Below, one piece after another: positions 20,714-61,508 of a DNA stretch of 64,000 nt (position 1 is its first letter; each line of letters begins with the position of its first letter). Both the position numbers and the translations under genes were made by a program. The stretch spans positions 1,736,001 to 1,800,000 of the forward strand of contig NZ_CP017770.1 of NCBI RefSeq assembly GCF_001857945.1, read 5' to 3'. The DNA is from Paenibacillus crassostreae (GTDB lineage Bacteria; Bacillota; Bacilli; Paenibacillales; Paenibacillaceae). The notes below the pieces were generated by a model that saw nothing but the letters and a program-made list of their open reading frames with translations, was not told the DNA's origin and did no database searches.

Positions 20714-22531
20714 TTAGGTCCGATCATCCTCATTCATGTCCTCTTTCTTGATCTGACTAAGTGGAATCGTAAATTCTACCCTTGTACCCCGTCCTAATTG
20801 ACTCTCAATCCGGAATTCTACACATCCGTCATAGTAGAGTTCAAGTCTTTTATATACATTACGAATCCCTACATGTGCACCAGAATAGTCAATTTTTGAG
20901 ATAGACTCTATGACCTCTTGAATTCTATGCTCATCCATCCCCATACCGTTATCCTCTACAGTTACAATTAACTGGTCACTAGTTACATGTGCTGTGACCT
21001 CAATATTCCGGATCCCTTTTCGCGCTTGAAATCCATGCTTACATGCATTCTCCACTAACGGTTGAATGCTCATCTTCGGTATCTTGTATAATAATGCCGA
21101 CTCATCAATCGTCATTGTGTAGTCAAAATGTTCCATAAAACGAAACTTCTCAATTTGTAAATACATATCAGTAAACCGAGTTTCTTCTTGCAATGTTACA
21201 AGATCATCTGACCAACTTAACAAACGGCGAAGAATTAATGACAGGTCCTTAATAACATTTACAACCTCGGTATAACCATTCTTCGTACTAACCACCAACA
21301 AAGCATTCAACGTATTAAACAAAAAGTGGGGATTCAACTGACTCTGCAATACATTAAGCTCAGCACGAATCCGTTCAAGTTCTAAATCTTTCTTCTGAAT
21401 CTCTAATTTATATACATCGTTAATCAGCGAGTTAATTTTCCCTATCATCAGATTATAGCTATGAATCAGTCCACCCATCTCATCTTTACTTTCGGCTAAA
21501 ATCACTGGATCAAACACACCCATTCTGACCTTTCCCATATGCCTAGACAAGCTCTTCATTCGGAAATGATAAGATTTCAACATAATGATGATTAGAAGCG
21601 TCGGTATTAATGTACTGATCATCATCATTGTAATCATAAAGCTTCTTGATTGGTTCACCAGATCTGTTACTTTATGATGATTCGAAGTTCCGATTAATTT
21701 CCAACCCTTCATATAAGTAGCCACCCCTAAATTTCTCTCAAAGCGAACCTTCTCATCACCTATATCCCCGCTTATTGATAGCATTTCAGAAGAAGCCATC
21801 TTATCTTCCTGTTGACTTGTCAGCACAACACGATTGTGATTATCGATCAATTGAAATTCTAAATAATCCCGCTCGCTACTCAGAATCTCACTTAATTTAT
21901 CCATCTTGAGGTCAATTTTTAAATGCTTATTATAGGTTCGTAGATCTCTAAAGTTATCAAGTTTATACATAATACTAATCTGTCTAGTTGGTTTGTTCAG
22001 AGATAGGGATACTCCATTAATATAAGCATATACAATGACTTGATCGGTAGAGGATTGAATCTTCTTATACCATGAGGTACTTCTCAGGTTGGTATCTACA
22101 TAGAAATATTCACCACCACTTGCAATGGTGTCGTTATTCGTAAATATGCCTAGTTCCTGCAGATTGGGGTGAACTGACAAATGTACATTTAATTTGTTCC
22201 GCAAGATAAGATTATTGGCCTCATAGAATTCTACTGGGGTTGCATAAGTCCGGTCTATTGCCTCATATAGTGTTCTATCAATAGAGATTGTATGGCTTAG
22301 ACTAACTAAATCTTCGAACATCCTTGTCACTTCCTTCGTGGCTCGATTCATTGAGATCGCAATGTTCTCCTCTTCACGAAGTAGAATGTTCTGTGAAATT
22401 TGCTTATAGAAGAGAATGTTAATCGCAATAATGGGAATCAGCACACACAATAAGTAGATTAATAGGAATTTGTATTTCAATGGAATATCATTAATGATAT
22501 GAGTAAATCCCCTAATAGAGTGTCTCCGCAT
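20714..22531 (-). CDS. YesM-type sensor histidine kinase
   Basis: A 605-residue two-helix sensor. Membrane segments at about residues 20-40 and 290-315 frame an extracellular sensing domain, followed by a HAMP linker. The His_kinase domain has LNPHFLFNTLNALL with the phospho-acceptor His; the ATPase domain has PLVENACKHGF and DNGMGMDE. The ATG at 22531 is placed six bases after AGGGAGG, leaving a 26-bp gap from the regulator gene. It probably senses the sugar brought by the adjacent LplABC system. Confidence 0.92.
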   Translation of the reverse strand: MRRHSIRGFTHIINDIPLKYKFLLIYLLCVLIPIIAINILFYKQISQNILLREEENIAISMNRATKEVTRMFEDLVSLSHTISIDRTLYEAIDRTYATPVEFYEANNLILRNKLNVHLSVHPNLQELGIFTNNDTIASGGEYFYVDTNLRSTSWYKKIQSSTDQVIVYAYINGVSLSLNKPTRQISIMYKLDNFRDLRTYNKHLKIDLKMDKLSEILSSERDYLEFQLIDNHNRVVLTSQQEDKMASSEMLSISGDIGDEKVRFERNLGVATYMKGWKLIGTSNHHKVTDLVNQSRSFMITMMMISTLIPTLLIIIMLKSYHFRMKSLSRHMGKVRMGVFDPVILAESKDEMGGLIHSYNLMIGKINSLINDVYKLEIQKKDLELERIRAELNVLQSQLNPHFLFNTLNALLVVSTKNGYTEVVNVIKDLSLILRRLLSWSDDLVTLQEETRFTDMYLQIEKFRFMEHFDYTMTIDESALLYKIPKMSIQPLVENACKHGFQARKGIRNIEVTAHVTSDQLIVTVEDNGMGMDEHRIQEVIESISKIDYSGAHVGIRNVYKRLELYYDGCVEFRIESQLGRGTRVEFTIPLSQIKKEDMNEDDRT

Positions 22532-22557
22532 TCGCATCCTCCCTGAATATGATAGAC

Positions 22558-24123
22558 TCAACCATTATTTTTCTTATACATTGACGGGATACAATCCGTT
22601 AGAACTTTGAATTTCTCCACAAAATATTCCGGATTTGAGTAACCAACTTTCTTTGCAATATGTTCTATCTTTAAATCCGTCCGACGTAGTAACCTCTTCG
22701 CTTCTTCGATTCTTAAATAATGGATGTAGGCGTTAAAAGACATACCATTATATTTCTTGAAACATTGACCAAGGATCACCACATTCAATTTGAATTGTTG
22801 GGCAAGTGTTTGAAGCTGCAGTTTATGACTATAATTCAATTTCACATACTCGATAATTTCATACATCGGATCAAGCTCTGACTTCTCTTTCTTCAATACA
22901 TCTAGCATAGAGGCAATTTCGGTACATATTTCAATAAGTTCTCTCTTCAATTGCGTAATATAAATAGGGACATCCTCGGTAATCAAAGATACTCGATCGC
23001 TAATATTCTCTACAGCATTCCATTGCAGCATTAGATTCATTAACTGAGATCGGATGATCACCATAACATTCACAATATCCTGATAATTGGCTCCCATAGT
23101 ATTAAAATCTTCAAAAATCAAATGAATCTGCTCTGATAGCTCGACCAACTGCCCCTCTTTCACTATACTTATTAGCTTGTCTATACGCTTATTCAAAGTA
23201 TCATTAAACAGCCTATCTTTCGTTTGGGTAGTAAAGAAGAAGACCCCCGCTTTACTCGCTGTTAATCTAATCATCTTAGCTTGCAATGCCTGCTGGTATA
23301 ATTCGTGTAATTCTGTTAGTCCATACCCCTGACCACTTATGTAGAACGAAATGTCTAGTTGAAATGAGGATTTCACATATGAAGCTAATTTAGATAGATG
23401 ACTTATCACCGTTCTGCGGATCGTTGGTCCTTCAACCAACAAGACACCCATCCGACCATCTGGTTCATGGAACAATGAACATTTACACCAAGAGGTTATT
23501 TCTATGATGCATTGCTGTCCGATCTGTTCCATCACCGATTTAGGCATATTTCTGAGTACGTCATGCTTGTCACTCTCTAATTCTAACAATAGAATTCTAA
23601 AGGAGGGAGTTTTCTTAAATCCAAGCCAATCAGGGACATGAGAAGGCATTTCATTCAAAGATTCTCCACGAACCCATTGGGAAATCGTAGCGGTAAATGC
23701 CCTCTGTTTAATTTCCTGATCAAGAAGTAGCTGTTTACGTTCCAATTCCATATCTTGTTGAACCTTATGTAGAACCTCTTCCACTTCATCTGCCATAATG
23801 GGCTTCTGAATATAGTGAGATACCTTATAACGAATTGCCGTCTGTACATAATCGAATTTAATATGAGCGCTCAAAATCACAAATTTGGGGATAATTATGC
23901 ATTCCTTCATCGTCTTTTGAATCAGTGATAAGCCGTTCATGCATGGCATATCAATATCCGTTATGACCAAATCAGGCTTCAAACTATGCAGGAGTTCATA
24001 ACCTTCTTCTCCATCCATCGCTTCACCACATAGCTCGAACCCATACTTTGACCAATCCACCATCCATCGTAATCCTTCAAGAACATAGGGTTCATCATCG
24101 ATAATAAGAACTCTTTTCATCAT
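22558..24123 (-). CDS. YesN-type response regulator with AraC DNA-binding domain
   Basis: A 521-residue regulator. Receiver domain (IIDDEPYVLEGL, phospho-accepting Asp in VITDIDMPCMNG, Lys in IQKPI), a long middle region, and a C-terminal AraC pair of helix-turn-helices (IAKKVGYSNPEYFVEKFK). AAGGAGG precedes tandem ATGs at 24123 and 24120. With the downstream kinase it forms the usual YesMN unit that activates a neighbouring importer operon. A cre-like site lies 47 bp upstream. Confidence 0.92.
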   Translation of the reverse strand: MMKRVLIIDDEPYVLEGLRWMVDWSKYGFELCGEAMDGEEGYELLHSLKPDLVITDIDMPCMNGLSLIQKTMKECIIIPKFVILSAHIKFDYVQTAIRYKVSHYIQKPIMADEVEEVLHKVQQDMELERKQLLLDQEIKQRAFTATISQWVRGESLNEMPSHVPDWLGFKKTPSFRILLLELESDKHDVLRNMPKSVMEQIGQQCIIEITSWCKCSLFHEPDGRMGVLLVEGPTIRRTVISHLSKLASYVKSSFQLDISFYISGQGYGLTELHELYQQALQAKMIRLTASKAGVFFFTTQTKDRLFNDTLNKRIDKLISIVKEGQLVELSEQIHLIFEDFNTMGANYQDIVNVMVIIRSQLMNLMLQWNAVENISDRVSLITEDVPIYITQLKRELIEICTEIASMLDVLKKEKSELDPMYEIIEYVKLNYSHKLQLQTLAQQFKLNVVILGQCFKKYNGMSFNAYIHYLRIEEAKRLLRRTDLKIEHIAKKVGYSNPEYFVEKFKVLTDCIPSMYKKNNG

Positions 24124-26447: not shown

Positions 26448-27914
26448 TTAAGTAATAGCTCTCAACTGTTGTAGCGCTTCCTCGTAATACTTTTCCTCGC
26501 CATAATATTCTGTAAAATACTGTTCGAATCCCTCGACTCTATCATTCTGACCAGTCGTAACGAAACGTGCATACCAAGGAATAATAAAACTATAGAGTAC
26601 ATTCTTCTTATTTTCTCTTATATCTGCTTCCGTTAATCCATTATCGATGAAACTCTGTAGAATTTTTTGATAACTCTCTATAAATACACGCCCAAAATTA
26701 TAACCAATCGGATCGTTACCAGCATAGGTGAACATCGAGCGATGAATAATGCAGAACTTCGGCTGTTGTGCGAGTATTGCATACTGCCAATAGAGCTGAT
26801 TAAACGAAGAATCTATATATTTCGACTTATCCTCAAGTGCGAGCCAAGCATCACGCTGTAAGATCATGGATGAAATAAAGGTACCCGATATGGATGAGCC
26901 CTTAAGATATTCTGCAAGCCCTTCTCCAGTATCGACCCAATAACCTCCTTTTAGCAGATCAATGTGGAACACTGCACAGTCATGATGTTTATACAGCACA
27001 TGTAACAAAGGAATAAGTGTATTCTCCATAAAAAAATCATCGTCACCCTGAAGCTTGAGGAATTTCCCTCTGCCCTGTCCAAGTACATGCTGAATGTTAC
27101 GGTCGGCTCCGATATTCGTTGCATTTCGTTGATATTTCAAATTGTTATACTTTATACGAAATCGTTCAACGACTGATGGAGTCGAATCATCGGATGCATT
27201 ATCTGATATACATACCTCGAATAGATCGCAATTGCCGATCTGTGAATAGATGGAGGTCAGACATTTCTCCAGATCCGTAGATCGGTTATAGGTAGGAATA
27301 CAGATGGAGAGCAAGGGTTCTTCTTTTCTTTGCTTAAGTAGTTGTTCTACCTCTTGTTGGGTATTAGTTCTTACCCATTCATTCGTTGCTGGTTGATATA
27401 CCTTAAGAACTTTCGCAGGCGCTCCTCCAACGACGCAATAATCAGGTACATTGCGGACGACTACAGAATTCGCCGAGACCACACTCCCCCTGCCGATTCT
27501 AACATTTCCTACAATCACCGCGTTCGCGCCGATCCATGCTCCTTCGCCAATTATCACTTGATCCGATCGTGTCGTGATGCCTTGGGATAGAACTGGGACT
27601 CCCACTTCCCGATATTGATGATCCGTATCAGAAATATAGACATTGGGTCCAATAAGCACGTTAGTCTCCAACTCTATCCGATTGACTGCTGATAGAATAA
27701 GTCCTAGATTGCATTGACAACCATCACCGATAATAATCTTTGGCATATCGCCGATATGTGGATCAATCACATTAAACCAATATCTTGAGCGTATATAAAC
27801 ATTGGTCCCAATCGCTATTCCAGCCGGATTAATCGATTGGCCTCCTTCCTCAACATGACTATTCAAGCCAAATCGGTTAAAGAGCGCTGCCGTCTCCATG
27901 CCTATCCATCCCAT
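26448..27914 (-). CDS. Fusion of hexapeptide-repeat acetyltransferase and GT2 glycosyltransferase
   Basis: A 488-residue two-domain enzyme. Residues about 20-185 are a left-handed beta-helix acyltransferase (IGTNVYIRSRY, VLIGPNVYISDTDHQY, ending VVGGAPAKVLK). Residues about 200-480 are a GT2 domain (LLSICIPTYNRS, DNASDDSTP, and the metal-binding LQGDDDFF), similar in style to abequosyltransferases. The pair could transfer a dideoxysugar and O-acetylate it or its acceptor. AAGGGGG lies six bases before the ATG, which is directly after the ThDP-enzyme stop. Last gene of the rfbH-led operon. Confidence 0.88.
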   Translation of the reverse strand: MGWIGMETAALFNRFGLNSHVEEGGQSINPAGIAIGTNVYIRSRYWFNVIDPHIGDMPKIIIGDGCQCNLGLILSAVNRIELETNVLIGPNVYISDTDHQYREVGVPVLSQGITTRSDQVIIGEGAWIGANAVIVGNVRIGRGSVVSANSVVVRNVPDYCVVGGAPAKVLKVYQPATNEWVRTNTQQEVEQLLKQRKEEPLLSICIPTYNRSTDLEKCLTSIYSQIGNCDLFEVCISDNASDDSTPSVVERFRIKYNNLKYQRNATNIGADRNIQHVLGQGRGKFLKLQGDDDFFMENTLIPLLHVLYKHHDCAVFHIDLLKGGYWVDTGEGLAEYLKGSSISGTFISSMILQRDAWLALEDKSKYIDSSFNQLYWQYAILAQQPKFCIIHRSMFTYAGNDPIGYNFGRVFIESYQKILQSFIDNGLTEADIRENKKNVLYSFIIPWYARFVTTGQNDRVEGFEQYFTEYYGEEKYYEEALQQLRAIT

Positions 27915-27916
27915 CG

Positions 27917-29695
27917 TTATCCCCCTTCTAACTCATCAAGCATATCGATCAACATTACCTTTCTTAATTGTTCCCTCGTAAGTAAAGGCGACATGTCTTC
28001 AATAGGTCTATTTACGACTAACTTCGGATTCACATTCGTATTTATAGCAAGCATTACTTCTACGAAATAACTTCCTTTACTGCGCAGTGCCAGATCAATC
28101 TTCTCCGTAGCTTCAGACATATTGGCTATTCTAGTTCCTGGAATACCGTAAGCTTCTGCTACCTTGACCAAATCAGGACATCCGTATCCTTCCACGGTAG
28201 ATTGCTGGCGACCGTCGAAGTACATATCCTGAAATTGCCGAACCATACCAAGATTTCTGTTATTCATCACGAACACTTTAATATTAAGATGATTCTGTTC
28301 AATGGTATGCAATTCTTGAATATTAAGCTGTATACCCCCATCTCCAGCAATAACAATGATTCTGGCATTCGGTGCTGCCATTGCGGCACCGATAGCTGCA
28401 GGTAGCGCAAATCCCATGGCTCCCATCCCTCCTGCGTTCAGCAAACGCTGATCCTCGAGCAATTGGAATGATTGGCTCGCCCACATCTGATGTTGACCGA
28501 CATCCAGTACGATCACATCCCCTTCAGCGCACCGTGAAGACAATAATTCTATAAACTGGTTGGGATCAATCACATTGTGATTAACTATTGAATCACCACT
28601 TGGATATTTCACCTTATGATCACGAATCATCGCTGCCCATGGTTCGTAATCAGGTAACTTTCTTCCAAATAAAGCTTTGGTAATATCAAATAGGAATTGT
28701 TTCACATCCGCATGAATGGCCAGATCGACCTGTACCTTTGCATTCAACTCCACGGCTTCTATATCCACATGAATTTTCTTCGCTCCGCGGGCAAATGTCT
28801 GTGGTCTTGTCCCCGTCTGCCGGGTATCTAGTCGAGAACCTAATACAAGCAATACATCACAGTTCGCTAAGGCAAGATTGCTATAACGATTACCATACGA
28901 CCCGATCAGTCCCATATTCGAAGAATGTCCCGCTGGAAGCACATCTAAGCCCATCAATGAACTCACGACCGGAATACCAGTTAACTCAATGAAATCCCTA
29001 AGTTCCTTGACCGCATCAGCCGCCCTTACTCCTCCCCCAACAAGAACAATCGGTCGTTCCGCTTTCTCTAACAAAGTAATGACCTCTTCAATCTCCTCAA
29101 TCTGACAATCTATATTGAAATTAGAATATCCACGATATTCTTCACTATCAAAGAAGCTTTCCAGCAGATCGGGTTCAATCTGAGCTCGCTGAATGTTCAT
29201 CGGAATATCAAGTAGGACAGGTCCAGGGCGACCATGTTGGGCGATGAATACTGCTCGCTCCAATTGATATCGAATTTGACCGGCATCCGTAATCATCACT
29301 GCCGTCTTCGTAATGGGTGTGACGATACTTACAATATCTGTTTCTTGAAATCCAATCTGCCTCACTGGCTTATCAAACTTATATTCGTACGTATTAACCT
29401 GTCCTGTAATGAATAAACAGGGAATCGAATCAAAATAACAGCTGCCGATACCAGTAATCAAATTAAGCGCTCCTGGCCCGCTCGTCCCCATCGCTACTCC
29501 CAGCTTACCGTTAATCCGGCTATAGCCTTCCGCAGCAAATGCAGCTGCCTGCTCATGATGAACAGACACACATGATATATCCTGTTGCTCGATCGTCGAG
29601 TCAAGTAGATGAACGATTGCTCCTCCAGTCATCTCGAAGATATGATGCACGCCTTGCTTACTAATAAAATTAATGACGTAATCAGACAATTTCAA
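27917..29695 (-). CDS. ThDP-dependent acetolactate synthase-like enzyme, candidate YerE-type branching enzyme
   Basis: A 592-residue member of the acetohydroxyacid synthase family. ThDP N-terminal domain with the activating Glu in VHHEQAAAFAAEGY, central FAD/NAD-like domain, and the C-terminal ThDP motif AGDGGIQLNIQEL...VMNN. No ilvN or other branched-chain amino-acid gene is nearby. It sits between the CDP-glucose dehydratase gene and a glycosyltransferase. In Yersinia, YerE of this family transfers an acetyl group from pyruvate to a CDP-3,6-dideoxy-4-ketosugar to give yersiniose. That role is proposed here by context. The start is TTG with GGAGGG six bases upstream. Confidence 0.82.
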   Translation of the reverse strand: MKLSDYVINFISKQGVHHIFEMTGGAIVHLLDSTIEQQDISCVSVHHEQAAAFAAEGYSRINGKLGVAMGTSGPGALNLITGIGSCYFDSIPCLFITGQVNTYEYKFDKPVRQIGFQETDIVSIVTPITKTAVMITDAGQIRYQLERAVFIAQHGRPGPVLLDIPMNIQRAQIEPDLLESFFDSEEYRGYSNFNIDCQIEEIEEVITLLEKAERPIVLVGGGVRAADAVKELRDFIELTGIPVVSSLMGLDVLPAGHSSNMGLIGSYGNRYSNLALANCDVLLVLGSRLDTRQTGTRPQTFARGAKKIHVDIEAVELNAKVQVDLAIHADVKQFLFDITKALFGRKLPDYEPWAAMIRDHKVKYPSGDSIVNHNVIDPNQFIELLSSRCAEGDVIVLDVGQHQMWASQSFQLLEDQRLLNAGGMGAMGFALPAAIGAAMAAPNARIIVIAGDGGIQLNIQELHTIEQNHLNIKVFVMNNRNLGMVRQFQDMYFDGRQQSTVEGYGCPDLVKVAEAYGIPGTRIANMSEATEKIDLALRSKGSYFVEVMLAINTNVNPKLVVNRPIEDMSPLLTREQLRKVMLIDMLDELEGG

Positions 29696-29718
29696 TTGAA
29701 ACCCTCCGTTCATATCCC

Positions 29719-30813
29719 CTAGGCATCCTTTAACATATAAGCATTGATCTGATCTAAGGTTACATTCCTCATATCTTCTTGTCTCTGATAAGCCTTATAC
29801 CATTCTACTGTTCCAGTGATCGCCTGATCCACGTCCCATTTAGGCTGCCATCCTATATCCTGCTTGGCTCTTGCACTATCAAGCCTAAGTGTAGAAGTCT
29901 CATGGAGAGTAGTTCCACTCTGGATATCATAAAAGTCAGGTTCGCCCCATAACGCTCCTAATGTCTTGACTAACCAATTCACATTCCGAACACTGTCTTC
30001 ACTTGGTCCAAAGTTCCATGCATCAGCATACTTCTCTCCTTGCTCCACCATCCTCTGAATAAGTAACATGTAGCCTTGCAAAGGATCAAGTACATGCTGC
30101 CAGGGTCGGATCGCCGCAGGATAGCGGATGGGTAATCTATTACCAGATAATAAAGCACGAATACAGTCCGGAACGATTCGGTCCACTGACCAATCTCCAC
30201 CACCAATGACATTACCAGCTCTTGCCGTAGCAATACTGATACCATGCACATCGTAGTTGGTAGGGTGAAAATAACTTTTACGAAAAGCAGAAGTTACCAA
30301 CTCTGAACAGGCTTTACTATTGGAATAAGGATCATATCCTCCTAATGGATCATTCTCGCGGTAACCCCATGCCCATTCTTGATTCTCATAGCATTTATCT
30401 GTAGTCACATTGAGTACTGCATGGATGTTTATTCCGCTTATTGTAGCAGTTCGTATTGCTTCAAGGAGATAGACTGTTCCAAGAGTATTTACCTCATACG
30501 TTTCAACAGGATGGGTATAAGAATAGCGAACAAGTGGCTGCGCAGCCATATGAATAATAATCTCTGGCTTCACCTCATTGATCGTACGGAGTAATGAGTC
30601 ATAATCTCGAATATCAGCAGTAACGGAACGACAAATATCCTGAATACGTGCTGACTCGAACAAACTAGGGGAATTCCTAGGATTCAATCCATATCCAGTT
30701 ATTTGCGCCCCCAGTGCATGCAGCCATAAGCATAGCCAGCTTCCTTTAAATCCTGTATGACCCGTAATCATCACTCTTTTTCCATTCCAGAATGAATTAC
30801 TCAGCGCACTCAA
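29719..30813 (-). CDS. rfbG: CDP-glucose 4,6-dehydratase
   Basis: Converts CDP-glucose to CDP-4-keto-6-deoxyglucose. The 364-residue extended SDR has the NAD-binding TGHTGFKGSWL, the TTDKCYEN loop with the catalytic Thr-Asp, and YxxxK in GGYDPYSNSKACSE. RPWQHVLDPLQGYM is typical of RfbG/DdhB. The start is TTG, only a few bases after the rfbF stop; AAGGG lies about eight bases upstream. Part of the rfbH-F-G operon. Confidence 0.94.
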   Translation of the reverse strand: MSALSNSFWNGKRVMITGHTGFKGSWLCLWLHALGAQITGYGLNPRNSPSLFESARIQDICRSVTADIRDYDSLLRTINEVKPEIIIHMAAQPLVRYSYTHPVETYEVNTLGTVYLLEAIRTATISGINIHAVLNVTTDKCYENQEWAWGYRENDPLGGYDPYSNSKACSELVTSAFRKSYFHPTNYDVHGISIATARAGNVIGGGDWSVDRIVPDCIRALLSGNRLPIRYPAAIRPWQHVLDPLQGYMLLIQRMVEQGEKYADAWNFGPSEDSVRNVNWLVKTLGALWGEPDFYDIQSGTTLHETSTLRLDSARAKQDIGWQPKWDVDQAITGTVEWYKAYQRQEDMRNVTLDQINAYMLKDA

Positions 30814-30817
30814 CCCC

Positions 30818-31597
30818 TTAGCCCTTATTCCAGTACCCTTTACCCGATTTCCACAGGTCTTCTAAATAATTTTTATCACGCAAAGTGTCCATTGGATGCC
30901 AGAATCCGTGATGTTTAAAGGCCATTAGTTCACCAGATTTAGCAAGCTCTTCAAGCGGTTCTCGTTCCCACACCGTGCAATCCTTTTCGATTAGATTGAA
31001 GATCGTTGGCTCGAGCATAAAGAAGCCTCCATTCACCCAACCTCCATCCCCTTGTGGCTTCTCCTGAAATCCGAGCACCTGTTGCTTATCCGTCAATTGT
31101 AATGCTCCAAACCGTCCTGTCGGCTGTGTAGCTGTAACGGTTGCCTGCTTACCATGTGCATCATGGAATTTAACAAGTTCTCCTATATCGATATCCGATA
31201 AGCCGTCTCCATATGTCAGCATAAAAGCTTCATCACCCACATATTTCTGTATGCGTTTAATCCGCCCTCCCGTCATCGTATCTTGTCCCGTATCCACTAA
31301 CGTCACCTTCCATGGATCCAGATAGCGATTGTGTACAGTGATTTCGTTCGTATTGGAATGTCCGAAATCAATCGTTACATCAGAGCCATACAAATAATAA
31401 TGTGCAAAGTATTCTTTGATGACATTCCCCTTGTAACCGAGACAAATGATGAAATCCTGGTATCCATAATGCGAGTAGATTTTCATGACATGCCAGAGCA
31501 GTGGTTTATCACCTATCTCGATCATCGGCTTCGGCTTCAAATAGGTCTCTTCACTGATTCTCGTTCCATAACCTCCAGCCAGAATAACAACCTTCAT
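30818..31597 (-). CDS. rfbF: Glucose-1-phosphate cytidylyltransferase
   Basis: Makes CDP-glucose from CTP and glucose 1-phosphate, the entry step to CDP-dideoxyhexoses. The 259-residue nucleotidyltransferase has [31 protein letters not shown] (metal-binding Asp) and [19 protein letters not shown], which match RfbF/DdhA. Its ATG overlaps the rfbH stop by 4 bp, a sign of translational coupling. Confidence 0.95.
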
Positions 31598-32919
31598 GAA
31601 AGAACCCTTCCCTTCAACAGGTGATGAATACTATCAGCGACGTATTGAAGCATATCTAACGTTAGCCCTGGGTATAAACCTATCCAAAACGTATCATTCA
31701 TGATTCGGTCGGTATTCTGCAACGTGCCAACAATGCGATGTGGAATGTCTTTATATGCCGGCTGACGTAAAATATTACCTGCAAATAACAAGCGAGTCCC
31801 AATCCTTAATTTTTCTAGTTCTTGAACAAGTTCATTTCGTGAAAGAGGTGCCTGAGCCCTCACTGTAATGGGAAACCCGAACCAGGAAGGTTCACTGCCA
31901 GCAGTGGCTTCCGGTAAGATCAGTACATCCGCTAATAACTTTAACTCTTCCTTCAAGTAATCAAAATTGGACCTTCGCTTGGCAATAAAATCAGGTAATT
32001 TCTGTAACTGTGCAACACCAACTGCTGCTTGCATATCAGTAACCTTGAGATTATAACCAATATGACTGTACGTATATTTATGATCGTATCCATAAGGGAG
32101 ATCTCCTAGTTGCCAACCAAACCGCTTCCCGCATGTATTGTCCTTCCCGGGATTACACCAGCAATCTCTACCCCAATCCCGGAACGATTCTACGATTTTC
32201 TTAAGTTTAGGCGAAGCTGTTAGAACGGCTCCTCCTTCACCCATCGTAATATGGTGAGCAGGATAGAAGCTGACAGTGGCTAAATCACCGAATGTTCCAA
32301 CCTGTTGCCCCTTATATTTCGTTCCAACAGCATCACAACAATCTTCAATTAGCCATAGATTATACTTATCCGCTATTCGTTTCACTTCATCTACTTGATA
32401 TGGATTTCCGAGGGTATGTGCGATGATGATCGCCTTTGTTTTCTCTCCTATAGCCTCTTCTAATAATGAAATGTTGATATTATAAGTAGGGATATCTACA
32501 TCAAGGAATACAGGGATCATGCCATGTTGCAAAATTGGATTAACGGTTGTCGGAAATCCTGCCGCTACAGTGATCACTTCGTCTCCTGGCTGAAGTCGAC
32601 GTTCACCAAGCTGTGGAGAGGTTAATGCGGAGAATGCAAGCAAATTGGCGCTTGACCCCGAATTCGTTAGTAGCGCATATTTGCACTGCATGAATTTGGC
32701 GAATTCTCGCTCGAATTTGCGTCCGTAACGTTCTGACGTTAAAGTGAAATCAAGTGACGCATCAAGCAGATTCACTACTTCCGAACTATCGAATACTTTG
32801 CCACTGACCGGAACATAATCTACTCCACGCCGATAAGGTTTCTCTGGCCACTTGGTAGCATAATATTCAACGGCTAACTCCAATATTTGTTCCCGTATAT
32901 CCCGTGCTGATCCTGTCAT
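31594..32919 (-). CDS. rfbH: CDP-4-keto-6-deoxyglucose 3-dehydrase (E1), PMP/[2Fe-2S] enzyme
   Basis: Removes the C3 hydroxyl of CDP-4-keto-6-deoxyglucose. The 441-residue DegT-fold enzyme shows [14 protein letters not shown], where His222 replaces the usual PLP-binding Lys, the hallmark of E1. The Cys set in [20 protein letters not shown] (Cys253, 255, 263) matches the E1 iron-sulfur site. The ATG at 32919 has AGGAGG nine bases upstream. First gene of the sugar operon. The usual reductase partner E3 (RfbI/AscD type) is not in the window. Confidence 0.95.
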
Positions 32920-33058
32920 GTATTTAGTCCTCCTAGGCCAGTTCATTCTTCATACTTTCATTTATATGCCACGAATAATGAGCGGGTTCATCGTCAGTAT
33001 GAAAATGGGGATTAAGGTAGGAATGAATATGAGAATCTTGCCGAACATAGCGAACAAA

Positions 33059-33144: not shown

Positions 33145-34398
33145 TTAGTAGGTAATAAGTATATCACTAGATTCTACATGTCCCTCCGATTCAAGTAGAA
33201 ATTCATCATTCAAATCATCCCATTGAAATGCTGCGTCCCGCCGAACAATCCGATTCCGCCGAACAATGGATGACTCACCTCCTGTTGTTGGTTCACCACC
33301 CTCCAACTGTAATTGGATTGAGACAGCATCCACCTGATCATGAAGAGATAGCTTTATACCTGATAACTTTCTCCGTTCATCAGCCGACATATGCTCTGCA
33401 GGATTCATCCAGAATAGAAACTTCTTCGTTGATTCTGTAACAATACGAGACCACCATACTTCCGGAGTATCCGTTCCCGATTTTACAACCTTACTCGTTA
33501 ACTCCAGTACTTTTGCTAATACACTAGCATCTGCACCCCTATCTAACACAATGATTTCTTCAGCCATCTGCTGAATCTGAGGAAGTATGACTTTTACATG
33601 GTCAACGGTATGCTCATCTATTGGAAGGACAAGCGTGATCGCTACCGGATCTTTATAAATCAGCGAGTGAATATCCTGACCCCACTTTTCCCTTGCCTTT
33701 TCCCGATTAATCACAAGCAAACCACCAAGATTCGCATTCTGTAATATTTTTGTTGTCATATGTCCAAAATGATGAATATATGAGTCGTAAACAACTCTTA
33801 ATCGATACCCCCGATTCAATACCCTCAGGCACATATCATCGTCCTCGTAGTTTCCCAGCCCATATCGTTCGTCGAATCCACCAACCTCTTCAATTATTTT
33901 GCGTTTAAACAACATGCAAAAACCGATAATCCTGCGAACATCAAATGAGTACCCCGCATGACGTGTCCCATGTTCATGGGCAAAAGCATTTAATCCTGTT
34001 AAATCATCATATCCAACTGCAATCTTCTGTTGTCCACTCGCATAATTCGTAACAGGTCCGACAGCCCCGATATCGTCATCTCCATATAACACCCTCAACA
34101 TTGCCGTTAGCCAGTTCGGAGTTACGATTGTATCATTATTTAAGAAGAGGATAGTATCTCCAGTCGCTACTTCTATTCCCTGATTACAGCCTTTGGCAAA
34201 GCCTAGATTGATATTATTGAATATAGATTTCACATCTGCCTGACTCTTTAAATAACTCACAGTCGCATCTGTTGATCCGTTATCTACAACAATCAGTTCA
34301 TAAGGCTCATCTGTATAACATCGAATGCTGGACAAACACATTTGGGTAATGGGTAATTGATTGTGAGTCAGAATAATGATGCTAGTCTTGTGTGTCAT
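33145..34398 (-). CDS. GT2 family glycosyltransferase
   Basis: A 417-residue glycosyltransferase without membrane helices. The GT-A core has SIIILTHNQLPITQMCL, VVDNGSTDATVSYL and the metal-binding LFLNNDT; YENDDMCLR-like NYEDDDMCLRVL and HFGH follow in the acceptor region, as in rhamnosyltransferase-like GT2s. The C-terminal 150 residues after about 260 look like a second, degenerate domain. GGAG lies seven bases before the ATG, and it overlaps the upstream GT gene by 4 bp. Probably extends the glycan on the adjacent collagen-like proteins. Confidence 0.88.
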   Translation of the reverse strand: MTHKTSIIILTHNQLPITQMCLSSIRCYTDEPYELIVVDNGSTDATVSYLKSQADVKSIFNNINLGFAKGCNQGIEVATGDTILFLNNDTIVTPNWLTAMLRVLYGDDDIGAVGPVTNYASGQQKIAVGYDDLTGLNAFAHEHGTRHAGYSFDVRRIIGFCMLFKRKIIEEVGGFDERYGLGNYEDDDMCLRVLNRGYRLRVVYDSYIHHFGHMTTKILQNANLGGLLVINREKAREKWGQDIHSLIYKDPVAITLVLPIDEHTVDHVKVILPQIQQMAEEIIVLDRGADASVLAKVLELTSKVVKSGTDTPEVWWSRIVTESTKKFLFWMNPAEHMSADERRKLSGIKLSLHDQVDAVSIQLQLEGGEPTTGGESSIVRRNRIVRRDAAFQWDDLNDEFLLESEGHVESSDILITY

Positions 34399-35477
34399 GA
34401 CGGATCTCCTATCTTATGAGTATCTCTGAAGTATTTGCGATTATAAATCATACTAGGATGAGTAGGATGAAATGCGGCTGCCTTCTCATTATGTTCATAT
34501 GCTTTGTCATATTGCTTCAAACGGTCGTAACATAAACATAGTTGAAGATGAGGATACCAAGTTGAAGAAGAACTATTGGTTATACCCAACCTAGCAACAT
34601 TCTCAATCTGGGTTGCCTGTACATACCAGTAAATTGCTGTATCGTACTGCTTCTCTGCAAAGAAGTAATTGCCGAATTCACAGGAAACCTCCGCACGTGG
34701 TTTCTCATAACATAAGACTCTAGCTAGAGATATGAATTGCTCATCTTTATTGCCCAACATACTATAACAATTTGCCATTTTCAGGCATGCTTGAATATTA
34801 TCTTCGATCCAGCCCTCTTTTGTTCGAAGCATTTTATCGTAAAATATGACTGCCTTGTCGTACATTTGGTGGTCTTTTAACTCGTTCGCATAATAATAGA
34901 GATCACGCGTCGAGAACTCTTCCCCAACATCCAATCTTTGCTGATAGATCTGTAAATTTCGATCTGTATAGGTCTTCTCCTTCCGATGCGTAATGCACAC
35001 ATCACTATCTAGAGATGGGCCGAAAACACTCAAGTATTCATGTACCGGACCAATCCATTGGAATCCGCATGCTCTACGTACAAGACGATTACGACGCAAG
35101 CTCGATGACGGCTTCCCATTGGTATCAAAAGAAAGTAAGTATGGCATCGTCACACGATCATATTGATTAGTTAACTTTTGCTTAAGCTTACTAAACCTCT
35201 TGCGATCGGCTTCTTCAATGACATCATCAGCATCCAACCATAATACAAAATCCTTCGTTGCTTTCGAGAATGAGTAGTTGCGAGCATCACCGAAGTTATC
35301 AATCCATTCATAATCGAAAATACGATCCGTATACTTTCCTACGATTTCTTTAGTTCGATCAACAGATCCCGTGTCGATAATATTGATCTCATCCACAATT
35401 CCTACCACAGACTTTAAACATCGCTCAATTGTGGCTTCTTCATCCCTTACGATCATACATAAGCTTATAGTCACCAT
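34395..35477 (-). CDS. GT2 glycosyltransferase with C-terminal TPR-like repeats
   Basis: A 360-residue protein. Residues 1-220 form a GT2 domain: TISLCMIVRDEEATIERCL, IDTGSVDRTKEI, WIDNFGDARNYSF and the DxD motif LWLDADDVI. From about 230 on there are helical TPR-like repeats (YYYANELKDHQMYDKAVIFY and later units). This architecture resembles peptide-modifying GTs such as SunS and the GT near collagen-like exosporium genes. The ATG at 35477 follows AAGGAGGGG at rather long spacing (12-14 nt), so the start is less certain. A paralogue lies at 40359-41531. Confidence 0.88.
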   Translation of the reverse strand: MVTISLCMIVRDEEATIERCLKSVVGIVDEINIIDTGSVDRTKEIVGKYTDRIFDYEWIDNFGDARNYSFSKATKDFVLWLDADDVIEEADRKRFSKLKQKLTNQYDRVTMPYLLSFDTNGKPSSSLRRNRLVRRACGFQWIGPVHEYLSVFGPSLDSDVCITHRKEKTYTDRNLQIYQQRLDVGEEFSTRDLYYYANELKDHQMYDKAVIFYDKMLRTKEGWIEDNIQACLKMANCYSMLGNKDEQFISLARVLCYEKPRAEVSCEFGNYFFAEKQYDTAIYWYVQATQIENVARLGITNSSSSTWYPHLQLCLCYDRLKQYDKAYEHNEKAAAFHPTHPSMIYNRKYFRDTHKIGDPS

Positions 35478-35537
35478 TTCTATTTGCTTCCCCTCCTTGC
35501 TGTCCTTCCTTAACAAGTGACATGTGTTTGTAATCAT

Positions 35538-35885
35538 ATATAAGCCTCAATCACCTTGGAATCATCGAATGAAAGTTGCAGCGTTCCCTCATACTCTTCT
35601 CTTACTTAATCCAGCTAACCTAACTGTTCATCACATTGAACCGCACGTAGCGATTGCCCACCAATCAGAACAACCAAGCGAAAGAAGCGATGCATACTAC
35701 AGTTTATACAGCCATAGAGGGAAGAGTGAGCCCTTTTTCAGAACAATGGATCATCTGATCTGAATGATTGTGGCATACCCATTCACTGCACAAATCCTAG
35801 ACAGGGGGACATCAGTTTACCTGCATCCACCTTTGAGGTTCGAGTCTTTAAGTAAACCATAAGATTTATCCTATTCTCGAGGAAC
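35538..35885. other. Intergenic region between GT unit and collagen-like gene, no gene seen
   Basis: Only short, unconvincing reading frames. It holds the promoter region of the two-gene GT unit on the minus strand. No repeat element or RNA gene was recognised. Confidence 0.5.
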
Positions 35886-35925
35886 AAAAAAACGCATGTT
35901 CTCATACACAGAACATACGTTTTTT
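35886..35925. terminator. Bidirectional terminator after the collagen-like gene
   Basis: Stem AAAAACGCATGTTCT / AGAACATACGTTTTT with one mismatch, with A- and T-runs on both sides. It lies about 60 bp downstream of the collagen-like gene stop. Confidence 0.85.
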
Positions 35926-35987
35926 AATATTTTACATAGTGGTTATTTACAGTCTGTAGAGAAAATCCTCTTTAGAAGAAATTCTTA

Positions 35988-38534
<2,547 letters not shown>

Positions 38535-38611
38535 CTAGAAAAAGCAACTCATGCTAGATTTATATTTTAATCATGTCCACTATCAATGAATGCTTTTACT
38601 ACTATAGTTAT

Positions 38612-38914
38612 CTACTCTTGAATAGCTCGCAATACCATTTCCAACTTATTCGTAAGAATCCATTCTTTTTTTCCTATTTCGCGAAGTGTTTCTCTAACAC
38701 TATTATTCATGTTCAATACATCACTTAGTGTTGCGACTGGTGAGGAGATGCCAGGTAGAGTACCAAGTACGTATTGAATCTTCTCTCCCTCTGCGTTAAT
38801 AATATGAGCAAGCCCTAACTCCTCCATCGCAATAGAGGTCAATATCAGGTTGATTGCATCGTCTCTGGTCAATGATATGGACGGAGTGATATTTGGAATA
38901 TTTGCTTGTGACAA
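38612..38914 (-). CDS. Stand-alone N-terminal domain paralogue of the collagen-like proteins
   Basis: A 100-residue protein that is only the shared N-terminal domain: [20 protein letters not shown], then [20 protein letters not shown] and [19 protein letters not shown]. No collagen repeats and no C-terminal head follow. It starts with TTG preceded by GGAGGAG. The stand-alone form suggests a structural or adaptor role in the layer to which the collagen proteins attach. A CATANNNTA motif lies 29 bp upstream, matching its neighbours. Confidence 0.85.
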
Positions 38915-38942
38915 TTAACTCTCCTCCTTCAGCTTAATAACA

Positions 38943-38951
38943 TAATGTATG
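38943..38951 (-). promoter_or_regulatory. Sigma-K-like -10 motif
   Basis: CATACATTA on the minus strand fits CATANNNTA exactly, 29 bp upstream of the TTG start. The -35 AC is not at the expected place. Confidence 0.45.
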
Positions 38952-39059
38952 TATTACAGAATTAAAGGGGACTGAGCGATACACCTATTTATATAAGTAG
39001 AAAGGCTAACGAAACAGACTTATATAACCCCTTATACACTACTGTGGAAAACAGTAATA

Positions 39060-39087
39060 AGCAGGTTCCCATACTGCGGAACCTGCT
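39060..39087. terminator. Hairpin after the second collagen-like gene
   Basis: Perfect 10-bp stem AGCAGGTTCC / GGAACCTGCT with an 8-nt loop, about 70 bp past the stop. The T-run after it on the minus strand is weak. Confidence 0.65.
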
Positions 39088-39154
39088 AGATTATCGTTAT
39101 TAATGGCCAACAGTTAATTCTTTTTTTATAATGTTCTAGAAGAAACTTAATGTA

Positions 39155-40237
39155 CTACACAATATTGATCTTGCATCTCTTCTTACAGATTACCTTTTTT
39201 TCGCATCTATAAGGTGCTTTGTATTTTTTTGAAACTTTACATTTTTTCGCTGCTAGTGTTTTGATAATACGTGCTACCGTTTTCTTCGATATACGAATAC
39301 CCCTTTTACGGAGGGCTTTGGTGATCTTCTCGACATCACACCTGAATTTATGATCGCAGATAACAGTATGGACCATCGATCGGCTTTGACAAGTTACTCC
39401 TTTTCTCCGCCCTCTAGCTCTGACATACACCGTTCGCCCTCGGGGTCCTGGAGGGCCCGGAGGGCCTGCTGGACCTACACCATAAGGTCCTGGAGGACCC
39501 GGAGGACCCGTTGGACCTACACCATAAGGTCCTGGAGGTCCTGGAGGACCCGGAGGACCCGCTGGACCTACACCATAAGGTCCTGGAGGACCCGGAGGAC
39601 CCGCTGGGCCTACACCATATGGGCCTTGTGGACCTTGAGGTCCTGCGACACCTTGAGGTCCTGCAACACCTTGAGGTCCTGCAACACCTTGCGGCCCTGC
39701 GGGGCCTGTGCCACCTATGCCATATGGTCCCGTGGGTCCTGCAATTCCTGCCGGGCCTGTGGGTCCGGCGACACCTGCGGGTCCTGCTGGACCTGTTGAA
39801 CCTTCACCATATGGACCCGTGGGTCCGGCAGGACCTGGGGGTCCAGCAAGACCCGTTGCGCCTGTCGCACCTGCACCCGGTCCAGTAGGGCCGATTGAAC
39901 CCGTTGGCCCTGTTGGTCCAGTTGCTCCCCTACCCGGAGAGACAAATTTTTTGAGTGAATCCATCTTATTTTGGAGAATAAATTCTGTCTTCGTAACCTC
40001 TTCTAGCATTTCCTTCACATTACAATTCAATGTTATAATTTCCTCAAATGTCGGTGCAGGCGTAACCCCTCCACCAGACAACGTTCCCAATGCATACTGA
40101 ATTTTTTCTGCTTCTGCGCTAAGAATATGGCTAAGACCTAGCTCCTGCATTGCAATAGAAGCTAATATTAGATTTACTGCATCATCACGAGTTACTGTAA
40201 TTTCAGGTGTAATATTAGGTATATTAGCTTGCGACAT
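39155..40237 (-). CDS. Collagen-like GPX-repeat protein with basic Cys-rich C-terminal domain
   Basis: A 360-residue protein. Residues 1-95 are the same N-terminal domain as its neighbours ([39 protein letters not shown]). Residues about 105-260 are Gly-X-Y triplets rich in Pro ([18 protein letters not shown]) with the punctuating GPYGVG, unlike the Thr-rich neighbour. The last 95 residues are strongly basic with about ten Cys ([28 protein letters not shown]). I recognise no known family there; disulfide or other cross-linking is a reasonable guess. AAGGAG lies about 11 bases upstream of the ATG. Confidence 0.87.
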
Positions 40238-40269
40238 TTTGCAATACACTCCTTCCCTTTTTTCATTCA

Positions 40270-40297
40270 TCACGTATGATATACGAACAATAATAGT
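40270..40297 (-). promoter_or_regulatory. Sigma-K-like promoter of the second collagen-like gene
   Basis: AAC, 17 nt, CATACGTGA (one mismatch to CATANNNTA), 33 bp upstream of the ATG. The same geometry as at 38451-38478. Confidence 0.5.
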
Positions 40298-40358
40298 TCA
40301 ATATCTACATCCAGTGTATGAATTCACTATAAAAGGGATTGGACTATCTTACCTGTTT

Positions 40359-41531
40359 CTACTCTCCAATGGCTCCGAAAGTTGTTGCAGAAGATCCTTC
40401 TATTAACTTAAGGGCTTCATGTGCATCCCTATGATCTGGTAACAATTCAAGGGTTTTCAAATAGGCATCCTTAGCTTTTTCATAGTTCTTCAGATTTTGG
40501 TGACAGACTCCAATATAATAATGAGAATAGAAGCTGCCTACGCCAACCATAATTAAATGTGCCGTATTTACCTCCTTCAGTTCCAAACAGTGATTAAAGG
40601 ATATCAACGCTTTCGTGTACTCCTTAGATTGCATATAGATAATCCCTCTGTAGAAGTGTAAATCCACATAGTCGGGATAGAGTTGAATTGCAAAATTTAT
40701 TCCATCTTTGGCACCTTCATAACTTCCAAGTGCAAGTAAAATAGAGTATTTTAATTTATACAATAGGGAAGGTGGCATGGATTTTTTTTCTAAAAAGCGA
40801 CGAATAGACGTGTTCACAGACTCGAAGGCCTGAACAAGTTCTCCTGAACGATAAAGTTCGCTACCGATATGATAATCGATCCAAGGATCATAATCTTCCA
40901 GTTGCTTCTCTTTCTCCAGTAGACGTAAATTGCGCTCGGATTTCCCTTTAACCTCTACCTCATAGTCCATATAACCATAATGATGAATATTGACAGGAAG
41001 TGTAATAACTGATTGTTTAGTTAAACCTAATTCGGATATATCTAATTGCTCATGAACGGCATTACGAAAGCGGAGATTGGAATTATTACGGAAGAGCCGA
41101 TACTGTGCTAACAAGTGCGACTGATTATAACTAGCTGGAAGTGGACCATAATAGTTAATGATTTGGACACTACCCAACCAATACTTATCTTCTTTTAACA
41201 CATTTCGTAATAATTCAACACTTTCCCCCGCCACTTCTTCATCAGCATCAAGCCAGAGCACCCAATCTCCTGTGCTCTTCTCGAGACCATAATTACGTGC
41301 AGCCGCGAAATCATCATTCCACTCGTAAGAATAGACTGAAGCATTGAAACTCAGGGCAATTTCTTTCGTCCGATCCTCTGAACCTGTATCGACAATAATA
41401 ATCTCATCGACTACAGCCCTAACACTCTTCAAGCATTGTGCAAGTTTTTCCTCTTCATTTCGTACAATCATACAGAGTGACAACTTTTTAAATTCCTCCG
41501 AATTATTATCCACGATTGTATATCCTCCCAT
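40359..41531 (-). CDS. GT2 glycosyltransferase with C-terminal TPR repeats (paralogue)
   Basis: A 390-residue protein. GT2 domain with LSLCMIVRNEEEKLAQCLKS, VDTGSEDRTKEI, WNDDFAAARNYGLEKS and LWLDADEEV, then TPR repeats (IQLYPDYVDLHFYRGIIYMQ; LKNYEKAKDAYLKTLELLPD). It is related to the GT at 34395-35477, so two such enzymes flank the collagen-like genes. Three starts are possible: ATG at 41531, GTG six codons later after GGGAGG, and a TTG closer to the conserved domain. Protein or core glycosylation of the collagen stalk is the inferred role. Confidence 0.87.
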   Translation of the reverse strand: MGGYTIVDNNSEEFKKLSLCMIVRNEEEKLAQCLKSVRAVVDEIIIVDTGSEDRTKEIALSFNASVYSYEWNDDFAAARNYGLEKSTGDWVLWLDADEEVAGESVELLRNVLKEDKYWLGSVQIINYYGPLPASYNQSHLLAQYRLFRNNSNLRFRNAVHEQLDISELGLTKQSVITLPVNIHHYGYMDYEVEVKGKSERNLRLLEKEKQLEDYDPWIDYHIGSELYRSGELVQAFESVNTSIRRFLEKKSMPPSLLYKLKYSILLALGSYEGAKDGINFAIQLYPDYVDLHFYRGIIYMQSKEYTKALISFNHCLELKEVNTAHLIMVGVGSFYSHYYIGVCHQNLKNYEKAKDAYLKTLELLPDHRDAHEALKLIEGSSATTFGAIGE

Positions 41532-41696
41532 TTATTCATAGTTCGATATTTAGAATACGCACCACAAAATGAGTTAGAGATTAGAGACTCATGTAATACT
41601 AACTATATGTCTAGAGCCGTTTTCTGTTACATATGACATTTTTCAGGGCGTGCCATCCTTACCCGCTCATAGAGTATAGTGTTGTTACCAAGCAAC

Positions 41697-54908: not shown

Positions 54909-61490
<6,582 letters not shown>

Positions 61491-61508
61491 TTCTATACGT
61501 TCCTGCAA

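Follow-up and report, generated by a model that had tools for sequence, protein, structure and literature searches.

What surface structure is encoded by a cluster of six minus-strand genes in the window analysed here, a stretch of 64,000 nucleotides (nt) of Paenibacillus crassostreae (NCBI RefSeq assembly GCF_001857945.1, contig NZ_CP017770.1, positions 1,736,001 to 1,800,000 of the forward strand)? An earlier note on this DNA had described a spore-surface glycoprotein locus, with three GT2 glycosyltransferase (GT) genes (33145, 34395, and 40359, named like all window genes by their lower coordinate) around three paralogous surface-protein genes (35988, 38612, and 39155). This layout was confirmed with Pfam PF00535, and all six genes lie on the minus strand. 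The three surface proteins have one N-terminal domain of ~95 amino acids (aa) in common, hereafter the N-domain, which in the two longer proteins is 77 and 59% identical to the 100-aa product of 38612. The locus probably makes a glycosylated endospore appendage of the A-ENA (“spore-silk”) type late in sporulation; we infer its fibre, spore location, glycan, and anchor from the evidence below.

The N-domain and its solved relative

The 100-aa protein matched no Pfam or NCBIfam family at E<=0.01, and a search of its own genome, with which a profile search agreed, found no copies of the N-domain beyond 35988, 38612, and 39155. A profile of the family retrieved a single convincing chain from the PDB, 9ihh with E=1.4e-26, the next two entries following at E ~0.6, and phmmer with the 100-aa protein alone found the same chain at E=4.6e-20. 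This entry, released on 2026-03-04 as “Ex vivo spore-silk A-ENA fibers”, contains a 101-aa protein that is 47-48% identical to the window subunit; both are ~100 aa long and helical hairpins. AlphaFold2, supplied with 29 family members (from 29 of 30 loci, L004 being excluded for an internal stop), gave a two-helix hairpin with a mean predicted local distance difference test score of 88.4 and a less certain N-terminal arm. In Foldseek, 9ihh was the top match and the sole one below 0.001 (E=4.4e-4, prob 1.0), with TM values of 0.77/0.81 and 47% identity. Homology of the shared domain to the A-ENA fibre subunit is well supported by these sequence matches, and because of this homology the middle, 100-aa gene most likely encodes a fibre subunit, the two collagen proteins being fusions to the same module.

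The earlier note had likened the locus to the BclA/anthrose arrangement with other sugars and another anchoring domain. The BclA-type head, the Thr-rich collagen, and a non-anthrose sugar cassette were recovered, while the shared domain is more than an anchoring domain, being homologous to a solved endospore-appendage fibre subunit. The closest analogue is therefore the F-ENA operon rather than BclA/anthrose alone. No A-ENA or spore-silk paper was found in the open-access library searched; subscription journals and preprints were mostly outside this scope, so publication is possible. The terms “A-ENA” and “silk” do not occur in PMC11952670.

Collagen fusions, sporulation control, and distribution

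The large protein (35988) carries ~170 Gly-X-Y triplets overall, 167 of them with Thr in Y, and the “hundreds” of Gly-X-Thr triplets stated earlier proved a slight overstatement of a Thr-rich array that is present. Its main run comprises 162 triplets with Thr in Y of 160 (99 GAT, 42 GET, and 16 GDT), and at the DNA level the array consists of 52.8 tandem copies of a 27-bp unit, with 82% matches. The BclA-like head was matched by PF18573 (E=5.6e-44), while phmmer of the head against the PDB returned nothing at E<=0.1 despite this clear Pfam model. An exosporium leader (LVGPTLPPIPP-like, as given in PMC10987987) was not present on direct reading, and no leader model appeared in the NCBIfam scan, where a short model could be missed. 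The large protein would be a glycosylated fibrillum with a C1q-like head. The family alignment fits MSQ starts at 38420 for the large gene and 40237 for the third gene, and points to these over the called starts 38456 and 40273. The called start 38456 is overlapped by a SigmaK promoter whose end is 30 nt upstream of 38420.

SigmaK sites were scanned with the motif AC-N15-17-CATANNNTA, after the consensus quoted in PMC5749712. They were found before 15 of 127 N-domain genes versus 9 of 473 others (mostly intergenic upstream regions; Fisher p=8.5e-6), and in an unfiltered scan before 17 of 165 versus 13 of 692 (p=3.8e-6); both p-values are optimistic because members of the N-domain family are related and not independent. 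Eight of the 15 sites lie 29-31 nt before the start, and the large gene of the window, at 30 nt from its corrected start, is among the 15. One of the nine other matches precedes an acyltransferase-GT homologue (L094). No enrichment was seen in the same upstream regions for the control motifs TATA...TA, CTTA...TA, or TTGACA; ATAC...TA was slightly enriched (p=0.04). In the unfiltered scan, the SigmaE motif was not enriched either (0 of 165 versus 1 of 692). A generic sigma-70 scan gave 27 promoter-like sites versus 18.8 (standard deviation 4.6) in shuffles, which is not interpretable. Upstream of the 100-aa gene, an exact -10, CATACATTA, stands 28 nt from the TTG start and is paired with an imperfect -35 that lacks the consensus AC. 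Mother-cell expression under SigmaK is supported by these promoter sequences. The sporulation link drawn in the earlier note is supported, as are GTs of a protein-glycosylating type. A loose SigmaK-like match at window positions 41602-41627, upstream of GT gene 40359, may well be chance in so long a region.

Carriers of the N-domain made up 15 of 60 relatives (own genome included), 36 of 398 genomes sampled from the phylum, and 9 of 42 from the order to which Thermoactinomyces sp. DSM 45892 belongs. The 76 N-domain loci compared here (L numbers) come from 30 species and from the best 80 of 474 confirmed matches in a genome-contig scan; they include Paenibacillus, Cohnella, Thermoactinomyces, Baia, Croceifilum, Bacillus atrophaeus, and others. 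The loci and the window together hold 166 N-domain open reading frames (ORFs), of which 100 carry collagen (at least 12 triplets), 50 have no collagen and are shorter than 135 aa, and 16 are of other kinds. Stand-alone and collagen-fused copies both occurred in the fetched loci of 24 of the 30 species. The 100 collagen proteins have 85 C-terminal tails of at least 60 aa, and 80 were scanned, one each from L056, L085, and L098 and two from L037 being omitted; 28 matched BclA_C, 4 YNCE (a beta-propeller family), 1 C1q, and 1 DUF4183. Beta-propeller-like tails replace BclA_C in N-domain collagen proteins of L068, L037, L071, and L096, the Pfam match being seen singly for L068 only.

On a tree of 152 rows (9ihh included, out of the 166 ORFs and 9ihh, with fragments, identical rows, and long non-collagen rows omitted), the fused/stand-alone label required 11 changes versus 47 when shuffled, with few columns and many open forks. 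The fused and stand-alone kinds are clustered on the tree, yet have exchanged. There were 38, 29, and 29 N-domain matches per genome (fragments counted) in Thermoactinomyces, Baia, and Croceifilum (G689, G690, and G692), and tandem arrays of 3-6 collagen genes occur in the same genera (L037, L063, and L084). These three genera are also those of the collagen-like protein radiation of PMC13233619, whose available passages describe collagen proteins and not the N-domain, and strain DSM 45891 rather than DSM 45892. In Bacillus atrophaeus NRS 213 (L099), an N-domain collagen protein has a head 63% identical to the BclA_C head of the window, and its gene adjoins a GT40359 homologue.

Two collagen fusions join the N-domain to F-ENA features. 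In Paenibacillus sp. P96 (L105:10001-13385), a protein of N-domain, collagen, and DUF4183 is directly followed by a 94-aa protein whose start, MPITPPF, resembles the F-ENA-2a hook MPVIKPV (PMC11952670). In L175, one of 15 collagen frames printed for 30 further fetched loci, an N-domain (E=1.5e-36) and collagen precede a tail resembling the DUF4183 tails of adjacent rows, in a genome with two DUF4183 matches. By their sequences, both proteins, with their DUF4183 or DUF4183-like tails, appear to be hybrids of two appendage types, and the N-domain is a candidate dock for F-ENA coupling in them. They also speak for another reading, close to that of the earlier note: a BclA-type nap with a new anchor, in which the N-domain only attaches individual collagen trimers to the coat or exosporium, no long fibre is formed, and the 100-aa protein is a basal-layer partner. 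In L105 and L175 the N-domain occupies the terminus at which docking of an F-ENA anchor would be expected, and F-Anchor-2a has no exosporium leader and may couple otherwise (section 9 of PMC11952670). The nap is nonetheless unlikely, because the solved structure of the homologous 101-aa protein is that of an ex vivo fibre; fibre and dock would be compatible if collagen proteins plug into A-ENA fibres.

Glycosyltransferases and sugar genes

The solved structures nearest to 40359 were GmaR (E=5e-43) and then SunS (7e-23), and GmaR was also nearest to 34395 (3e-25). GmaR is the O-linked N-acetylglucosamine (O-GlcNAc) transferase of Listeria flagellin and acts on protein, while SunS, per NCBIfam naming, acts on peptide; the sequence of 40359 suggests that it is likely a direct protein O-glycosyltransferase. 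Homologues of GT34395 or GT40359 (E<1e-30) occurred in the fetched loci of 20 of the 30 species and in 22 of the 76 loci. In L033, L061 (split frame), L095, L079, and L081, a homologue of 33145 shares the locus with homologues of its two companion GTs, and homologues of the acyltransferase-GT fusion (26448) were found in L032, L033 (split frames), L061, and L094.

Next to the GTs, RfbF-, RfbG-, and RfbH-type genes and a thiamine diphosphate (ThDP)-dependent carboligase (27917) occur together, as in the YerE-type pathway. RfbH belongs to a family which we take to be the cytidine diphosphate (CDP)-4-keto-6-deoxyglucose 3-dehydratase. At 502 bits, the ThDP enzyme fell short of the 538 that the acetolactate synthase model requires. 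In both L195 and L196, a homologue of 29719 is placed between RfbF and a ThDP enzyme; L198 has the same order with one extra dehydratase-like ORF in between. In YerE, activated acetaldehyde is transferred to CDP-3,6-dideoxy-4-keto-D-glucose (PMC12247030), and a 4-C-branched dideoxy sugar, perhaps a 3,6-dideoxyhexose to judge by the enzyme families and the order of the genes, is therefore proposed as the cassette product. In Cohnella faecalis (L198), the whole cassette is flanked by N-domain genes, an acyltransferase-GT fusion, and GTs, and because it is embedded in an A-ENA locus there, a link of the branched sugar to the fibre is proposed. The ThDP enzyme of P. phytohabitans (L197) lies ~6 kb from N-domain collagens, with more collagen ORFs between, and the cassette of Paenibacillus sp. 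P96 (L195) lies beside two GT40359 homologues, on a contig as long as that of L032 and nearly 30 kb from the L032 stretch.

Table 1. Features of the probable appendage locus and the adjoining sugar genes, in window coordinates
Feature	Coordinates	Strand	Basis or remark
GT2 glycosyltransferase, TPR at C-terminus	40359..41531	minus	PF00535 7.8e-27 + TPR
A-ENA-domain, short Gly-Pro-rich collagen, basic Cys-rich tail; candidate anchor (uncertain)	39155..40237	minus	called ORF start 40273
Basic/Cys-rich tail of the 39155 gene, partly like the HTH region of IS3-type transposases	39158..39424	minus	
100-aa stand-alone homologue of the A-ENA fibre subunit, TTG start	38612..38914	minus	
SigmaK-type -10 CATACATTA before the 100-aa gene	38943..38951	minus	direct sequence reading
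SigmaK promoter AC...CATATGATA of the large gene	38451..38478	minus	consensus in PMC5749712
Large gene: A-ENA-domain, short collagen, ~50-aa insert, 162-triplet collagen, BclA_C head	35988..38420	minus	called ORF start 38456
GT2 glycosyltransferase with TPR, SgtA-like architecture	34395..35537	minus	PF00535 1e-16
GT2 glycosyltransferase without TPR match; presumed glycan extension	33145..34398	minus	PF00535 7e-28
RfbH	31594..32946	minus	NF011936 736.6 bits, cut-off 423
RfbF, glucose-1-phosphate cytidylyltransferase	30818..31597	minus	TIGR02623 427.1 bits, cut-off 300.25
RfbG-like NAD-dependent sugar dehydratase; CDP-glucose 4,6-dehydratase by context	29719..30813	minus	PF16363 5.6e-35
ThDP-dependent carboligase, YerE-like by context only	27917..29713	minus	TPP_enzyme N/M/C domains
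Hexapeptide acyltransferase-GT2 fusion	26448..27914	minus	PF00132 + PF00535

Elsewhere in the window, a pair of histidine kinase and AraC-type response regulator lies at 20714-24123, a few kb from the sugar genes, and a 2199-aa ORF occupies 54909-61508 on the minus strand.

Contrary evidence, proposed assembly, and known systems

Several results weigh against a glycosylated A-ENA appendage at this locus. VIA-align gave a Z of 9.9 for 9ihh (2.7 Å, 92 residues) versus 9.5 for the unrelated hairpin 4abm; since hairpins are common, the homology argument rests on sequence, and the fold counts only jointly with it. SpoIVA was present in 34 of 36 N-domain genomes versus 300 of 362 without the domain (p=0.09, not significant), a co-occurrence that is uninformative because 334 of the 398 sampled genomes have SpoIVA. 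The solved entry nearest to the ThDP enzyme is named acetolactate synthase II (5ahk, 5e-128), and among the 30 N-domain genomes RfbH (E<=1e-100) was found in 9 and the ThDP enzyme (E<=1e-170) in 4 (those of L195 to L198), so that most are without the cassette. The tail of the third protein is partly transposase-like, and only two of the other 165 N-domain ORFs are comparably basic, with other sequence and without collagen. A collagen ORF was present in only 2 of 20 regions around GT34395 homologues without an adjacent N-domain, two of the 20 regions being short at contig ends. GT34395 homologues occur in 37 of the 60 relatives and N-domains in only 15. In favour of a link, 5 of the 14 N-domain genomes other than that of the window, among the 60 relatives, have the two close together, the GT34395 match starting 0.5-1.7 kb away from an N-domain match (P ~3e-5, by a generous chance model).

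A further reading is that the GTs and sugar genes belong to the synthesis of a polysaccharide or of some other glycoprotein and merely adjoin the collagen genes. Where a genome lacks N-domain genes, GT34395 homologues are often found on their own, and in Cohnella sp. WQ 127256 (L196) the ThDP cassette lies in a polysaccharide-like cluster, as judged by eye. Co-location recurs, however, across Paenibacillus, Cohnella, and Thermoactinomycetaceae, and the GT2-TPR enzymes are nearest to proteins that act on protein or peptide, which leaves this explanation quite improbable.

As a general rule, a collagen-specific role of GT34395 was rejected, 18 of the 20 regions being without a collagen ORF, and from this and the spread of GT34395 it follows that the GT family is not specific to the fibre. 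The two regions with collagen and no adjacent N-domain encode Thr-rich collagen proteins with another N-terminal domain (L163:3374-7918, with MSFLSTGPIENG..., and L150:4604-6844), and a stand-alone 115-aa relative of that domain, recognised by eye, adjoins a GT34395 homologue in L147 (L147:7559-7906). The pieces scanned of these three proteins gave no Pfam match, and the 115-aa protein no PDB match. They are possibly a further appendage type.

The tail of the third protein (39155) contains 34% Lys and Arg and 8% Cys. Its middle matched PF13276 (HTH_21) at 1.9e-5, under the family cut-off, and the IS3 transposase model NF033516 matched at 0.0025, far under its cut-off. In tblastn, the tail aligned with transposase-like ORFs of other genomes, in one alignment with a ~49-aa gap; two of the aligned ORF kinds are present in five copies in a genome and therefore look like transposases. 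This alignment, together with the finding that a 39155-type tail occurs in none of the other 165 N-domain ORFs, is what a collagen gene broken by an old IS3-type insertion would leave. The frame is nevertheless open and its basic and Cys content high, a Lys/Arg-rich stretch precedes collagen in 11 of the 15 printed collagen frames (counted by eye), and one N-domain protein with a basic, Cys-containing tail occurs in each of the Thermoactinomyces and Croceifilum GT clusters (L079 and L081). These two and 39155 are the 3 of 166 N-domain ORFs with a 40-aa stretch of at least 30% Lys and Arg. An anchor role, suggested by likeness to the basic ends of collagen-DUF4183 proteins, is weakly indicated, and a broken gene, which has an even chance and is compatible with a glycosylated A-ENA appendage, is as likely.

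In the assembly proposed for this appendage, the 100-aa helical-hairpin protein would polymerise into a 9ihh-like fibre, as its homology suggests. The large protein might join the fibre as a tip or side branch through its own subunit domain and show a rod of ~170 triplets with a BclA/C1q-like head. By analogy with SgtA and BclA3, 34395 and 40359 may place the first sugar on collagen Thr, with 33145 and the acyltransferase-GT fusion extending the glycan. To judge by enzyme families and gene order, RfbF-RfbG-RfbH and the ThDP enzyme would supply for this glycan a yersiniose-type building block, a 4-C-branched 3,6-dideoxy sugar activated with CDP. Least firmly, the third protein could tether the fibre to the coat through its basic Cys-rich tail.

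A wider and rather doubtful proposal is that the A-ENA hairpin is a plug-in module of the spore surface, which alone would form the fibre and, fused to collagen, would insert glycosylated head-bearing rods or dock another appendage, with its own branched-sugar cassette and with one anchor domain captured from an IS3-type transposase. If true, it would explain the leader-free F-ENA coupling in some Paenibacillaceae and the Thermoactinomycetaceae collagen-protein radiation. For some genomes, this would be a testable answer to how leader-free appendages are coupled, a question left open in PMC11952670. A domain without annotation, present in 36 of 398 sampled genomes, is tied here to a solved spore fibre, with an indication of how such a fibre may be coated and tipped, and the branched-sugar glycan predicted for a bacterial collagen is relevant both to spore adhesion and to glyco-engineered collagen.

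Among known systems, A-ENA 9ihh agrees with the window in subunit sequence and fold, while the window, in a glycosylation locus, also has this domain at the front of two collagen-like proteins. BclA with its anthrose-type glycan (B. anthracis and B. cereus) has the BclA_C head and the Thr-rich collagen in common with the large protein; the window differs in having no exosporium leader motif, another N-terminal domain, and adjoining RfbF/G/H and ThDP genes. In Clostridioides difficile, SgtA is a 358-aa GT2 protein with TPR, encoded just upstream of bclA3, which in vitro attaches beta-O-GlcNAc to Thr in peptides from the collagen region (PMC7157674). The window likewise has GT2-TPR genes (34395 and 40359) beside a Gly-X-Thr collagen gene, a likeness of architecture and gene position, while it holds three GTs and a sugar cassette. 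In the F-ENA system of B. thuringiensis (F-Anchor, F-ENA, F-BclA, and a GT; PMC11952670), the subunit is DUF4183 with a beta fold, while here it is a helical hairpin, and DUF4183 gave 0 matches in the own genome at E<=0.01. The two systems are alike in combining a fibre subunit, a Thr/Ser-rich collagen, a BclA/C1q-like head, and a nearby GT.

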